Program-made: the position numbers and the translations under genes | NCBI GenBank assembly: GCA_003331365.1 | Contig: QOQC01000009.1 | Span: 1 to 37,913, forward strand | Reading direction: 5' to 3' | DNA length: 37,913 nucleotides | Origin: Flavobacteriales bacterium | GTDB taxonomy: Bacteria > Bacteroidota > Bacteroidia > Flavobacteriales_D > Crocinitomicaceae | In this document: positions 27,910-33,587 of the stretch, piece after piece | Layout: each line of letters starts with the position of its first letter | Position numbering within the stretch: the stretch's first letter is position 1 | The notes under the pieces: model-generated | Databases searched by the model: none | Seen by the model: only the letters and a program-made list of their open reading frames with translations | Told to the model about the DNA's origin: nothing

Positions 27910-29235
27910 TTAACTGGTAATGATTTTTTCTTCTTTTGGCACTCTAAACAAATAGAAAAGTCCGATAATAAAAAACAATCCAATGGATATCACTGAATAC
28001 CTAATGTCGTCAAATCTCCATTCCGTAAAGGCAAAAAATGCGGTTCCAAGTACTATTCCCAATTTTTCAGAAACATCATAGAATGAAAAATAGCTGGCAT
28101 GATCCGTAGTTTCAGGTAAGTATTTTGAATAGGTTGATCGTGCAATAGATTGAATCCCACCCATGACAAGCCCTACAAAAGACGCTAGAATGTAAAACTC
28201 TGTTGGTGTAGTAATAAAATAGGCACCAAAACATAACAATATCCAAATAAATACGGAGATTTTTAAAGTTGATATATTCCCGATCTTGATGGAAATATTA
28301 GACATTAATTTTGCACCTATTGCAGCAAGAATTTGAATCAAAAGTATGGCAATAATCAGGCCCGTGGTTCCCTCATCTTCTGGCCATTCTATGGCTTTGC
28401 TAGCAAAAATAGTGGCTAAGAGCATTACCGTTTGAACGCCAGAATTAAAAAAGAAAAATGCGTATAAATACTTTTTGAGACGGGTAGTCTGCATAAATTC
28501 TTTGTAAACGATTTTGAGTTCTCTAAAACCCTTCCAGATATAATCAGCTTCAGGTTTCTTTCTGAAGGGATTATTGGGTATTACACGATACGTAATTTGG
28601 GCAAATCCAATCCACCATAAACCGACTAGAATAAAACAATATTTTGTTAAGTGGGGCCCATACCCCATAATCAATCCCAAACATATCAAAAGTAGAATGA
28701 TACTTCCGATGTAACCCATTATAAATCCTCGGGCTGAAATATCATCTTGTTCTTCTAAGGGAGCAATTTCCGGAAGGAAAGCGTTATAAAAAACGAGACT
28801 ACACCAAAAACCAATTGAAGCACACAAGACGGAAATCATGCTGAACTCCATGTAATTTGCATCGAAGAAAAATAAGCTCATGCATGATAGTGAACCGAAA
28901 TAACAGAAAAATTGAAGAAAACGTTTCTTGTTACCCGTATAGTCGGCGATTCCCGAAAGAATTGGTGAAATAAAGCTAACCAGTAAAAAAGAAACGGAGA
29001 TCACTAATGAATATAGTACACTTGGAGAAACATTGTAACCAAAAAAGTCAATGGTGACATCATTGGACTCAATTTCTTTTGCTGTAAGTCCAGTTTCATT
29101 TAGGTAAGTTGCAGTAGTTTGTGCTTCATAAAAAATGGGAAAGATTGCTGTCGAAATAACTAAGCTATATACAGAATTGGCCCAATCGTACATGACCCAA
29201 CCTTTGATGATTTTCTTATCCCCTTTTTGTATCAC
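27910..29235 (-). CDS. MFS transporter, UMF1/Atg22-like
   Basis: 441 aa, 12-TM-like; 'KGWVMYDWANSVYSLVISTAIFPIFYE' is typical of UMF1-family MFS. GTG start. Confidence 0.85.
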   Translation of the reverse strand: MIQKGDKKIIKGWVMYDWANSVYSLVISTAIFPIFYEAQTTATYLNETGLTAKEIESNDVTIDFFGYNVSPSVLYSLVISVSFLLVSFISPILSGIADYTGNKKRFLQFFCYFGSLSCMSLFFFDANYMEFSMISVLCASIGFWCSLVFYNAFLPEIAPLEEQDDISARGFIMGYIGSIILLLICLGLIMGYGPHLTKYCFILVGLWWIGFAQITYRVIPNNPFRKKPEADYIWKGFRELKIVYKEFMQTTRLKKYLYAFFFFNSGVQTVMLLATIFASKAIEWPEDEGTTGLIIAILLIQILAAIGAKLMSNISIKIGNISTLKISVFIWILLCFGAYFITTPTEFYILASFVGLVMGGIQSIARSTYSKYLPETTDHASYFSFYDVSEKLGIVLGTAFFAFTEWRFDDIRYSVISIGLFFIIGLFYLFRVPKEEKIITS

Positions 29236-29274: not shown

Positions 29275-30489
29275 TCATTCATTGCCAGCGACATAATCAT
29301 TGAGGTATTCAAATGCCGGCATCAAATTTCCTTCCTTGTTGGTTTGACTTGCACGTTCGATTATTTGGTCAGGATCATCACCAATAATGGCGGGTATCAC
29401 ATGTTTGATTAATTCATTACCAAAGTCTTCAGAAGCATCTTTCGGCAATTCACAAGGTAGATTGTCAACAGCCATTACCGCAATAACACCCTCTTCTGTA
29501 TAATCTTCTACTTCTTGTCCATTTTTTGGATTATAGCCATATATCGGACTCGAAATTTTCGAAGGACGTAGGGTAGAGGCAATAGGATCAGCAATATCAC
29601 AAGAAATATCCGCTACTACCGATATTCTATTGTCGGCAGACGCTAAATCTTCTTGCTTTAATATTTTTGGAGAATTACTATTCCAATAATGACAAGGAAT
29701 ATACATATCGGAAATAGGTGTATATTTTTGAAAACCTTGTTTGAACAGTTCTGGCTTTGTGTAAAATTCTTTACGGATAAATGCTCCACCATCTATTTTA
29801 ACGAAATAGTCCTCAACCTCAAGGTGAGCGAAAATGGGTTCATTAATTGAAGATTTCAAATATTCTTGAGGTGTAACTTCTTTAATAGGGAGGAGATTCA
29901 TAATTTCTCTCGCACCATGCCCCACACGACCAAAACCTGTAAGCACCATTCTAAAATTGGAGGGTAAAGACACCTTTTTTAATTCATGCTCAACTTCCTT
30001 TCGGTCATTACACTGATTGGCAGGTTTGAGTTCGTATAAATTGTGTTTCAATCCAAAAGTTCTAAAACCGTTGTAGCAACCAACAATTCCGGCATATCTT
30101 CCAAACCCTATGAGTCGAACATTTCTCTTATCTTTAATTATCTCATAATCGATAAGTCGAATTTTTCGCTTTAATATTTCTTGAAGAAGAACCCGATTGT
30201 ACGATTGCTTTTTAAAAGTGTGTGAGAAAAACATGTATGATTTGTTTGGAATCAAATCCTCAAGATTCACCTCCTTAACTCCAATAATAAGGTCGCAATG
30301 ATCAAGATGATCAACCAATTCTATGCCCTCATTAGCATATTCTTCATCCTTGTAAGTTCGAATAGGACTTTTTTGAACACTAATGTGAACTCCGGTAAAT
30401 TTTTCTTGAATTTGGCGACATTGTTTTGGCGTGAGGGCTACTCTAAAATCGGGTGGCACTTTACCTTCTTTGATAATTCCAATCTTCAT
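29275..30489 (-). CDS. NAD(P)-dependent saccharopine dehydrogenase / alanine dehydrogenase-like oxidoreductase
   Basis: 404 aa; 'IGIIKEGKVPPDFRVALTPKQC', 'RLIGFGRYAGIVGCYNGFRTFG', 'VLTGFGRVGHGAREI', 'VADISCDIADPIASTLR'. Confidence 0.8.
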   Translation of the reverse strand: MKIGIIKEGKVPPDFRVALTPKQCRQIQEKFTGVHISVQKSPIRTYKDEEYANEGIELVDHLDHCDLIIGVKEVNLEDLIPNKSYMFFSHTFKKQSYNRVLLQEILKRKIRLIDYEIIKDKRNVRLIGFGRYAGIVGCYNGFRTFGLKHNLYELKPANQCNDRKEVEHELKKVSLPSNFRMVLTGFGRVGHGAREIMNLLPIKEVTPQEYLKSSINEPIFAHLEVEDYFVKIDGGAFIRKEFYTKPELFKQGFQKYTPISDMYIPCHYWNSNSPKILKQEDLASADNRISVVADISCDIADPIASTLRPSKISSPIYGYNPKNGQEVEDYTEEGVIAVMAVDNLPCELPKDASEDFGNELIKHVIPAIIGDDPDQIIERASQTNKEGNLMPAFEYLNDYVAGNE

Positions 30490-30498
30490 AATATAATT

Positions 30499-31182
30499 TT
30501 AATCGTCTTTTTGCCCAGAATATAGGTCTAAGAATTCGCGAATACATCCATTGCCACCTTTTTTCTGTAATATTAGATGGGATATTGTTTTGATTTCAAT
30601 AACAGCATCAGATGGGCAGGCCGAAACACCAACCTTTTTCATGATCTCCAAATCATTTATATCATCTCCAATCATGGCAATTTCTTCTAACGAAATTTTT
30701 TCCTCTTTCATCCATTGATTTAGAATATCGATTTTTGATTCACGGCCTACATGGCATTTTTGTATACCTAGCATATCTGCTCTGCGTTTCACAATTTCAT
30801 TAGAAAAACCAGATGAAATAATACCAATTTGTAGTCCATTATTAATGGCTTTGATAATCCCCATTCCATCCTTGGTATTGAACTTTTTTTGCTCGTCTCC
30901 ATTTGCTGTAAACAACATTCCTCCGTCCGTCATCACGCCGTCAACATCAAGAATCAAAAGCTTTATATAATCAAGTTTTTTTCTTAACTCACTTTCAATA
31001 ATAAGTGATTTAAATAGGAGTGATTCCATGGAAATTTGATATTCATCACATATAGCCTCCAAATCGAAGATGCTTAATTCTTTTACGGATTCAACGTTGA
31101 AATCACTGAGAAAATCCTGAAAATGAATGCCGTTTTTCGAGCATAAACCCTTTATGTTTTGTTCTAAATTCATTTTAAACAA
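30499..31182 (-). CDS. KdsC-type HAD phosphatase with about 70-aa N-terminal Xre-like helical extension
   Basis: 227 aa; 'LILDVDGVMTDGGM', 'FNTKDGMGI', 'MIGDDINDLEIM', 'GGNGCIREFLDL'. N-terminus 'IKGLCSKNGIHFQDFLSDFNVESVKELSIFDLEAICDEYQISMESLLF'. Confidence 0.85.
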   Translation of the reverse strand: MFKMNLEQNIKGLCSKNGIHFQDFLSDFNVESVKELSIFDLEAICDEYQISMESLLFKSLIIESELRKKLDYIKLLILDVDGVMTDGGMLFTANGDEQKKFNTKDGMGIIKAINNGLQIGIISSGFSNEIVKRRADMLGIQKCHVGRESKIDILNQWMKEEKISLEEIAMIGDDINDLEIMKKVGVSACPSDAVIEIKTISHLILQKKGGNGCIREFLDLYSGQKDD

Positions 31183-32173
31183 GATTTAACCCAAGGCTCT
31201 TCGCTAATGGCACAAGCTCTTGATGAAGTTTTTTAAATTCCTGGTGATTCAACTGCTGAGAGGCATCAGATTTTGCCTCTTTTGGCTCGGGATGAGCTTC
31301 GATAATCAATCCATCAACACCCATGGCCAAACATGCCTTAGTCAGAGAAGGTACACCATAAGCATATCCCATGGCGTGTGAAGGATCAAGTATAATTGGC
31401 AAATTGGAAAATTCTTTAAGCCAAGCCACTCCACATAAATCTAAAGTGAATCTTGTCTTTGTCTCAAAGGTTCTTATTCCTCTCTCACACAGAATTACAT
31501 TTGGATTTCCGCCAGACAAAACAAATTCTGCAGCTTGAGTGAATTCTTGAAGACTGGTTCCAAAGCCTCGTTTAATCATTACTGGTTTTTGAGTTTGAGC
31601 ACACGCTCTAAGAATTCCCTGATCATACATGGCTTTCGCTCCAATTTGTATGATGTCGGTGTACTCTATTACATCATTAACATGTGTAGCATCACGCACC
31701 TCGGAAATGATTTTTAATCCGTGTTCCTCTCTCATTTTGGACAATAATATTAGTCCCTCTTTTCCAAGTCCTTGAAATGAATATGGACTCGTTCTCGGCT
31801 TGTAGCACCCACCTCTCAGTATTGATAAGTTAAGCTCTTTGAGAAGTTTAGCAGAAGAATCAATTTGTCCTTCTGATTCTACTGAACATGGTCCGCCAAT
31901 TAAAACCGTGTTTTTCGTGTTTCCACCAATTTTAATATTACCTAGATTAATTTCTGTCTTTGTATTGTGGTAGGATATGGATGACAATTGCATGTCTGAG
32001 TCAAATACCCATTTCTCATCAATATTTTTTTCAAATATTAATGGGAGTTCTTTTAAGCCAGAACTTGTAATTAATAGGTCTTGTGTATCCTTTTTGATAT
32101 GAAAAGCATTTAGCTGTAATTTCATTTCTTCAAGAACCCGCGATTCAATATTTTTTTTGAGCTTGATTATCAT
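31175..32173 (-). CDS. Type I-beta 3-deoxy-7-phosphoheptulonate (DAHP) synthase with ferredoxin-like N-terminal domain
   Basis: 332 aa; 'LIGGPCSVES', 'LRGGCYKPRTSPYSFQG', 'ILCERGIRTFETKTRFTLDL', 'ILDPSHAMG', 'IIEAHPEP'. Confidence 0.9.
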   Translation of the reverse strand: MIIKLKKNIESRVLEEMKLQLNAFHIKKDTQDLLITSSGLKELPLIFEKNIDEKWVFDSDMQLSSISYHNTKTEINLGNIKIGGNTKNTVLIGGPCSVESEGQIDSSAKLLKELNLSILRGGCYKPRTSPYSFQGLGKEGLILLSKMREEHGLKIISEVRDATHVNDVIEYTDIIQIGAKAMYDQGILRACAQTQKPVMIKRGFGTSLQEFTQAAEFVLSGGNPNVILCERGIRTFETKTRFTLDLCGVAWLKEFSNLPIILDPSHAMGYAYGVPSLTKACLAMGVDGLIIEAHPEPKEAKSDASQQLNHQEFKKLHQELVPLAKSLGLNLV

Positions 32174-33180
32174 ATTTCGCCTTTAATCAGGTGTACAAAA
32201 TTAACAATTCCAACCGCATTCATCGATTTGTCAATTACTGGCAAATACATGATTGGAAACGAACAAGATTTAATTTGCCGAAGTAGTTCAATCACCGTTG
32301 CATTGTCATATATGCTGATTGGATTTGCATTGATGAGATCTACTGGCTGAATGACTGAGGGATTATCGATTTTTTTGAGGAGTGCTTTTCTGATATCAGC
32401 ACTCGAAACAAGACCATATAAATTTTGGTCTTTACTACATATTAAGGCAAATCCCATTTTTCCATTTTCGACACTTTCCAATATGGACTTCGTCGTTGCA
32501 TTTTCAATGAAAACATGAGGAACTTCCTCTAATGGAGTCATAAAGTCTCTGATACAATAAGTAGATTCGATTTCTCTCTGGGTTAGATTCATTAAGGAAT
32601 TTCCAATACTGGCACCGCTAAATAAATAGGAGCCAGAAACGGATAAACTAACACCCATATTTCTCAAGATGAAGGAAACCTCGTCATTAACTCCACCGTC
32701 TACGTGAATTGATTTTCTCGGGTATCTTGATCTAAATTTTCTAATTTTCGAGAAGTTATATTGATCAAAAGATCCACCACTCTGTCCTGGAGTTGTTGCC
32801 ATAATTAAAATGAAATCCATGTATTCAAAATCATGGAAAACCTCAATATCAGTTGGAGTAGTAATGGCTAAGCCTTTTTTACCTTTGATATCTTTTGGAA
32901 GTTTTAAGGGCTTCGTTAAATTCTCATATTGGAAAGTAATATATTCGACAGGATTTTCGAGTAATAGGTCGTAGTATTTATGAGGTTGATCAGTGATGAT
33001 GTGTAGGTCAATTGGGGTATTGCACCAACTTCTTATTTTTTTTATATCACTAAATACATCCAAATTATCGTTGCAGTCAATATGCAACACCTCGATTTGG
33101 TGTCCTACAAGGTCATCTATAACCTCTCTAAGCGCTCTTGTTTTGTCACTATATATGGAAGCAGAGATTTTCATGTTCAA
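32170..33180 (-). CDS. Ribulose-phosphate 3-epimerase-like TIM barrel fused to a C-terminal CBS-domain pair
   Basis: 336 aa; N-terminal 'ISASIYSDKTRALREVIDDL...VLHIDCND', 'IDLHIITDQPHKYYDLL', 'ILIMATTPGQSGGSF', 'IHVDGGVNDE', 'VSGSYLF'; C-terminal 'IRDFMTPLEEVPHVF...GLVSSADIRKALL...PVDLINANPISI...AVGIVNFVHLI' CBS pair. Confidence 0.85.
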   Translation of the reverse strand: MNMKISASIYSDKTRALREVIDDLVGHQIEVLHIDCNDNLDVFSDIKKIRSWCNTPIDLHIITDQPHKYYDLLLENPVEYITFQYENLTKPLKLPKDIKGKKGLAITTPTDIEVFHDFEYMDFILIMATTPGQSGGSFDQYNFSKIRKFRSRYPRKSIHVDGGVNDEVSFILRNMGVSLSVSGSYLFSGASIGNSLMNLTQREIESTYCIRDFMTPLEEVPHVFIENATTKSILESVENGKMGFALICSKDQNLYGLVSSADIRKALLKKIDNPSVIQPVDLINANPISIYDNATVIELLRQIKSCSFPIMYLPVIDKSMNAVGIVNFVHLIKGEI

Positions 33181-33587
33181 GGATTAATTTTATTCGGAAT
33201 GGTTAGAATATTGAAATATTTATCGCAAATGGCAATTTGACAAGGTATATTGACAAAAACTTCCTGATTAAGCTGCGATTGAATTTCATTAAAAAGTTTA
33301 ATATCCTCAAATGGCATTTGTTGTGATCGGAAGTTCTCTGAAACAATAACTTTTAGAATAAAAGATTTATTGTCTTTTTCTCGAGATAATTTTAAGCTTT
33401 GTTTTCTTTTTCCATCAAAATTATTCCTGATCCAAAAATCGAGTAATTTCTCTGCGTATACCTGATCTTCTTTGATGTCATAATATACCGTTGTATTGTT
33501 CTTTTCGACAGCCATTTTTCCATCGTTTAAACATGATTGGAATGTTAAAAAAGAAAGTATTAAGAAAAAAACTGCTTGATTTTTCAT
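33177..33587 (-). CDS. Small putative lipoprotein, uncharacterised
   Basis: 136 aa; hydrophobic signal followed by Cys ('LSFLTFQSCLND'); 4-nt overlap with the downstream gene. Confidence 0.65.
   Translation of the reverse strand: MKNQAVFFLILSFLTFQSCLNDGKMAVEKNNTTVYYDIKEDQVYAEKLLDFWIRNNFDGKRKQSLKLSREKDNKSFILKVIVSENFRSQQMPFEDIKLFNEIQSQLNQEVFVNIPCQIAICDKYFNILTIPNKINP

Follow-up and report, generated by a model that had tools for sequence, protein, structure and literature searches.

A probable replacement of KdsD and KdsA by an epimerase-CBS fusion and a DAHP synthase-like enzyme in Crocinitomicaceae

Gene content of the locus and make-up of its proteins

The window analysed here, a 37,913-nucleotide stretch of contig QOQC01000009.1 from a genome of the Crocinitomicaceae, carries on its minus strand a gene that joins a ribulose-phosphate-3-epimerase (RPE) barrel to a pair of CBS domains of the type found in the arabinose-5-phosphate (A5P) isomerase KdsD (Table 1). 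As judged from the overlapping reading frames, this RPE-CBS gene is translationally coupled to a gene for a synthase resembling type I-beta DAHP synthases (DAHPSl) and then to one for a KdsC-type phosphatase, so that the gene order (CBS-tailed precursor enzyme, synthase of the DAHPS/KdsA superfamily, KdsC phosphatase) parallels kdsD-kdsA-kdsC. Most genera of the family, and also two other families, have the three genes side by side; exceptions are G012, with about 11 kb between the fusion and the DAHPSl and KdsC genes, and G002, where the fusion is found on a different contig. In several genera the KdsC gene is followed by the AlaDH-like and MFS genes, and this holds too for genomes with KdsA and without the fusion. 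A record titled Sphingomonadales (L005) carries the Crocinitomicaceae operon as well and is apparently a mislabelled MAG.

Table 1. Features of the RPE-CBS locus (positions in the window)
Feature	Position	Strand	Remarks
RPE-CBS fusion gene	32170..33180	minus	336 aa from TTG; likely start ATG 33174, 334 aa
Ribulose-phosphate-3-epimerase barrel of RPE-CBS	32620..33171	minus	Predicted by Pfam and alignment
CBS pair of KdsD type in RPE-CBS	32179..32553	minus	Predicted by Pfam, NCBIfam and tail HMM
DAHPS type I-beta-like synthase (DAHPSl)	31175..32173	minus	332 aa; overlaps RPE-CBS stop by 4 bp
KdsC-type HAD phosphatase	30499..31182	minus	~70-aa N-terminal extension; overlaps DAHPSl by 8 bp
Small putative lipoprotein	33177..33587	minus	Upstream of RPE-CBS; homologue abuts KdsC gene in G038 and G052
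AlaDH/PNT-N (saccharopine-dehydrogenase-like) gene	29275..30489	minus	Downstream; Pfam
Atg22-like MFS transporter gene	27910..29235	minus	Downstream; Pfam

Relatives of the fusion start at the internal ATG with the peptide MKISASIYS. Pfam places Ribul_P_3_epim at aa 4-187 (E 2.8e-23; 82.8 bits against a cut-off of 21.1) and CBS domains on two stretches (E 2.5e-7). The RPE models of NCBIfam match the N-terminus without reaching their equivalog cut-offs (TIGR01163 scores 78 against 212.6), and matches to the kpsF, KdsD and GutQ models are confined to the C-terminal ~125 aa; TIGR00393 covers positions 157-268 only, which are the CBS part, and no SIS isomerase domain is recognised in the protein. 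The structure predicted by AlphaFold2 (pLDDT 86.7) comprises a barrel of eight strands and a CBS pair; human and bacterial RPEs are the best Foldseek matches of the barrel (E 5e-12), and the tail matches CBS proteins, among them the CBS pair of KdsD (4o9k). The reading of both halves in the initial annotation, an RPE barrel followed by a KdsD-like CBS tail, is thus borne out, the former by Pfam, NCBIfam, Foldseek and AlphaFold2 and the latter by the NCBIfam matches and by the scores of the tail HMM given below. The same holds for its remarks on the active site, namely that the H, D, H and D of the metal and catalytic positions are kept, that the GHFVPN segment is lost and that the cap loop is altered: H31, D33, H58 and D159 (numbering of the 334-aa form) are invariant among 11 relatives, the FVPN loop (DGHFVPN segment) is deleted in all aligned fusions, and the FGGQ loop is changed in every fusion examined, mostly to QSGG or ESGG.

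RPE-CBS shares with canonical RPE the fold and the His/Asp set of metal and acid/base residues, but differs from it in lacking the FVPN loop, in the changed FGGQ, in the replacement of two active-site methionines (M to N/K and M to I), in its fusion to CBS domains and in having a canonical RPE alongside. Nearly all genomes of the family sample encode one canonical RPE and one fusion, which rules out that RPE-CBS generally serves as the sole RPE of its genome; in the incomplete genome of the window, only the fusion and no second RPE was detected. An annotation or assembly artefact was likewise rejected, since full-length homologous fusions in 152 of the 246 genomes sampled from the order are not compatible with a chance reading frame or an assembly chimera.

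An HMM built from the CBS tails of the fusions scores the closest Bacteroidota KdsD tails with 68-75 bits and more distant KdsD tails with 31-43 bits, compared to 26-35 bits for the CBS pairs of IMPDH, nucleotidyltransferases and aminotransferases, and the CBS-only matches examined from a phylum-wide search are SIS-CBS KdsD proteins. RPE-CBS resembles KdsD, KpsF and GutQ in the type and position of this tail, but has an RPE TIM barrel in place of the SIS catalytic domain, and within the tail it reads S-S/N-A-D-I-R-K where KdsD has T-D-G-D-x-R-R.

The neighbouring DAHPSl belongs by sequence to the type I-beta DAHP synthases, in whose superfamily KdsA is also found. It meets the DAHPS cut-off of TIGR01361 (316 against 267.75 bits) but not the KdsA cut-off of TIGR01362 (123 against 314 bits), and it lacks the KdsA motif KANRSS, instead of which it has KPRTSP; a KPRT(S/T)P motif is present in all 21 aligned homologues. 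DAHPSl differs from known DAHPS in two family-wide loops, GAR being changed to GAK and GRR to G(Y/H/F)A throughout the 21 homologues save for one that reads GYS. The resulting GAK-x-MYD and G-aromatic-A patterns are absent from two DAHPS structures, from DAHPS/chorismate mutases and from KdsA, and they are consistent with a new substrate. A separate DAHPS/chorismate mutase coexists in DAHPSl genomes, making it unlikely that DAHPSl is the DAHPS of the aromatic pathway. The phosphatase gene that follows encodes a protein above the cut-off of TIGR01670 (129 against 106.95 bits); its top-scoring model is KDN-9-phosphatase, for which it remains under the cut-off (152 against 180).

Distribution of the fusion relative to the enzymes of KDO synthesis

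KDO is the sugar that joins lipopolysaccharide to its lipid anchor. Nearly all Gram-negative bacteria synthesise it, and KdsD and KdsA are usually regarded as markers of the pathway and as drug targets. Among 246 genomes of the order, all of them at least 90% complete except for the window's own, 152 carry the fusion and 83 carry canonical KdsA, yet none carries both, where 51 co-occurrences would be expected if the two were independent; a Fisher P value is not meaningful for this exclusion because the genomes are related. SIS-type KdsD is present in 82 of the 246 genomes and in all but one case in those without the fusion, and five genomes have KdsD without KdsA. RPE-CBS and the SIS-CBS enzymes exclude each other and occupy the same genomic slot, ahead of the genes for a synthase of the DAHPS/KdsA superfamily and a KdsC phosphatase, and this lends support to the proposal of the initial annotation that the catalytic domain of KdsD has been swapped for an epimerase, the fusion being found where KdsD and KdsA are missing. 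The single fusion genome with a SIS/KdsD-like match, G017, has a weak one (3e-26) in an apparent polysaccharide cluster (L155, G017:C1 25000-35000), beside glycosyltransferase and nucleotidyltransferase genes. Fusion, KdsA and KdsD are all absent from 6 of the 246 genomes, probably due to assembly gaps.

KdsB is encoded by 236 of the 246 genomes and in both classes. Similarly, in a set of 20 genomes of the family, KdsB is present in 19 and WaaA scores over its cut-off in 18, again in both pathway classes, and KdsA together with the SIS half of KdsD is confined to the two near-complete members of this set without the fusion, G038 and G052. The near-universal KdsB and the presence of WaaA in most genomes checked indicate that a KDO-like sugar is needed irrespective of the front end. 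At least three separate swaps at the level of taxa can be distinguished, in genus g19 (G038, G052 and G404), in family f58 (g174 against g175-g179) and in family f60 (g197 against g198), and at each of them the fusion and KdsA change together and in most cases KdsD does too.

A search for other RPE-CBS proteins and their neighbourhoods, as the initial annotation had suggested, revealed them with KDO-type neighbours in other genera of the window's family and in two further families of the order. No full-length fusion was detected outside the window's genus in 296 genomes drawn evenly from the phylum, and this sample does not support a wide distribution in the phylum.

Three genomes within the fusion family carry KdsA and KdsD instead, and in the two whose operon was examined (G038 and G052) the genes for the lipoprotein, KdsC, the AlaDH-like protein and the MFS transporter are retained in order with exactly RPE-CBS and DAHPSl missing. 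The site that they leave empty is marked by the junction of the lipoprotein and KdsC genes, and a SIS-only KdsD as well as KdsA are encoded elsewhere in these genomes. Their KdsC, KdsB and WaaA nest inside the fusion family (KdsB with G412, 98/97; WaaA with G018, 96/95) and are, on this placement, vertically inherited, and no column of the KdsB alignment separates the fusion and KdsA classes over all rows. Vertical inheritance and sharing of these three proteins suggest that the same downstream enzymes serve both front ends, from which we argue that the fusion route yields KDO or a very similar compound. KdsB of the window's family (f1; L106-L119) has an ETPN(I/V)D motif near its C-terminus in fusion and KdsA genomes alike, at a position that differs in other KdsBs (e.g., GVDTPD or AVDTRE).

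A proposed route to KDO and its alternatives

On the grounds of comparative genomics, RPE-CBS and DAHPSl very probably stand in for KdsD and KdsA as non-orthologous replacements. This goes beyond the initial annotation, as our data support a swap of two adjacent genes, inclusive of the DAHPS-like one, inside the KDO pathway, and the route appears to span the whole family of these aquatic Bacteroidota. Its reaction, substrates, product and regulation are inferred. Canonical RPEs abstract the proton alpha to the carbonyl and return it on the other face, which on an aldose would amount to a 2-epimerisation, and the RPE barrel of the fusion with its metal site and two acid/base aspartates could in this way convert R5P to A5P by epimerisation at C2. 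Alternatively, RPE-CBS may isomerise Ru5P to A5P as KdsD does. DAHPSl would use A5P and PEP to form KDO-8-phosphate, the KdsC-type phosphatase would remove the phosphate, and ordinary KdsB and WaaA would activate and transfer KDO. Five-carbon sugars are substrates of some type I-beta DAHPS, but for DAHPSl, given its DAHPS motif KPRTSP and DAHPS-type scores, the use of a five-carbon substrate is only an inference. The CBS pair would regulate the first committed step, plausibly via a nucleotide of the pathway such as CMP-KDO, by which the CBS pairs of KdsD are regulated.

Independent support for the tail as a mark of a regulated, A5P-supplying first step comes from G474, a genome without KdsD or the fusion, where a TAL_FSA domain (1e-34) is attached to a KdsD-type CBS tail (5e-15; L152 5715-6728, minus strand) and the gene is located between those for KdsA and a KdsC-like phosphatase. 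Like RPE-CBS, this protein combines a non-SIS catalytic domain with the tail in a KDO operon; unlike it, the catalytic domain is an aldolase and works beside canonical KdsA. A5P is a product of FSA, formed from glycolaldehyde and glyceraldehyde 3-phosphate (PMC9947464), and KdsD is the first committed enzyme and known source of A5P (PMC10448790).

We favour the view that RPE-CBS makes A5P, albeit with clear reservations given that the reaction and substrates are inferred and no biochemical test is available. An RPE-fold enzyme that acts as an aldose-phosphate 2-epimerase or A5P isomerase is not known, and no description of RPE-CBS, of the missing KdsD or of an alternative KDO route was found in the open-access literature that was searched (most subscription journals lie outside it), in line with the initial annotation, which could name no characterised enzyme of this architecture. 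The specific assignment of the barrel as an aldose-phosphate 2-epimerase, supplying, in a family without KdsD and KdsA, either A5P from R5P to a DAHPS-derived KDO-8-P synthase or the threose 4-phosphate from which a KDO substitute of seven carbons would be built, remains tentative, with slightly more doubt than conviction on our side. If the proposed route is true, this family has replaced KdsD and KdsA with enzymes recruited from the pentose-phosphate and shikimate pathways, its genome annotations are wrong at these steps, and a new enzyme activity awaits assay; the CBS tail of KdsD would then be a module found on SIS, RPE and aldolase domains that supply the same precursor.

The four intact metal ligands, together with the RPE fold, suit an ordinary 3-epimerase equally well. 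RPE-CBS could accordingly be a regulated ribulose-5-phosphate 3-epimerase, or a regulator, that serves the supply of pentoses and E4P, with A5P coming from an unrecognised enzyme and DAHPSl alone replacing a KDO enzyme. A5P production with neither the fusion nor a recognised KdsD is illustrated by g177 and g178 of family f58 (G483, G484, G485, G487, G488 and G489), which encode KdsA and neither of the two, so that the supply of A5P in the order is not fully understood; about 2.0 of the 4.0 Mb of G484 were scanned without finding a CBS-tailed sugar-phosphate enzyme, and one transaldolase-like domain was seen. We nevertheless consider an ordinary epimerase unlikely, as a separate canonical RPE accompanies the fusion almost throughout the family sample, the FVPN loop is lost and methionines of the active site are replaced, and genomes with KdsD and KdsA lack RPE-CBS and DAHPSl together.

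The chief competitor of the A5P route, and one that cannot be ruled out, is a seven-carbon variant of the pathway, which would retain the 2-epimerase chemistry and begin from another sugar. RPE-CBS would epimerise erythrose 4-phosphate at C2 to threose 4-phosphate, from which DAHPSl would form 3-deoxy-D-lyxo-heptulosonate 7-phosphate with PEP, and KdsC, KdsB and WaaA would use this analogue, one carbon shorter than KDO and stereochemically KDO-like at C4/C5, in place of KDO. The E4P-type KPRTSP motif that DAHPSl retains would fit such a reaction, as would the spacing between the alpha carbon and the phosphate, which by stereochemical inference is the same in E4P as in Ru5P, the substrate of RPE, and the deletion of the loop, which would suit the loss of the C1 hydroxymethyl; the family-wide alteration of the DAHPSl loops also makes it probable that this enzyme is not a plain DAHPS. 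Both the reactions and the product of this variant nonetheless seem improbable to us, because KdsB, WaaA and KdsC are shared and vertical across the classes without a class-specific KdsB column, and the same enzymes would have to take true KDO in KdsA genomes.

A role of RPE-CBS and DAHPSl in aromatic amino-acid or secondary metabolism, with the KDO correlation reflecting nothing but shared ancestry, could draw on the NCBIfam DAHPS score and on a presence that strongly tracks taxonomy (family f1), but is hardly credible in view of the separate DAHPS/chorismate mutase, the swaps of g19, f58 and f60 in step with KdsA and KdsD, the coupling of a KdsC gene to the pair, and the presence of KdsB where KdsA and KdsD are absent. 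KdsC-type phosphatases are themselves present in two forms in most genomes checked and in both pathway classes, one of about 180 aa and one of about 225 aa with the N-terminal extension; the pair of G000 is located at C27 11109-11552 and C78 30514-30966.
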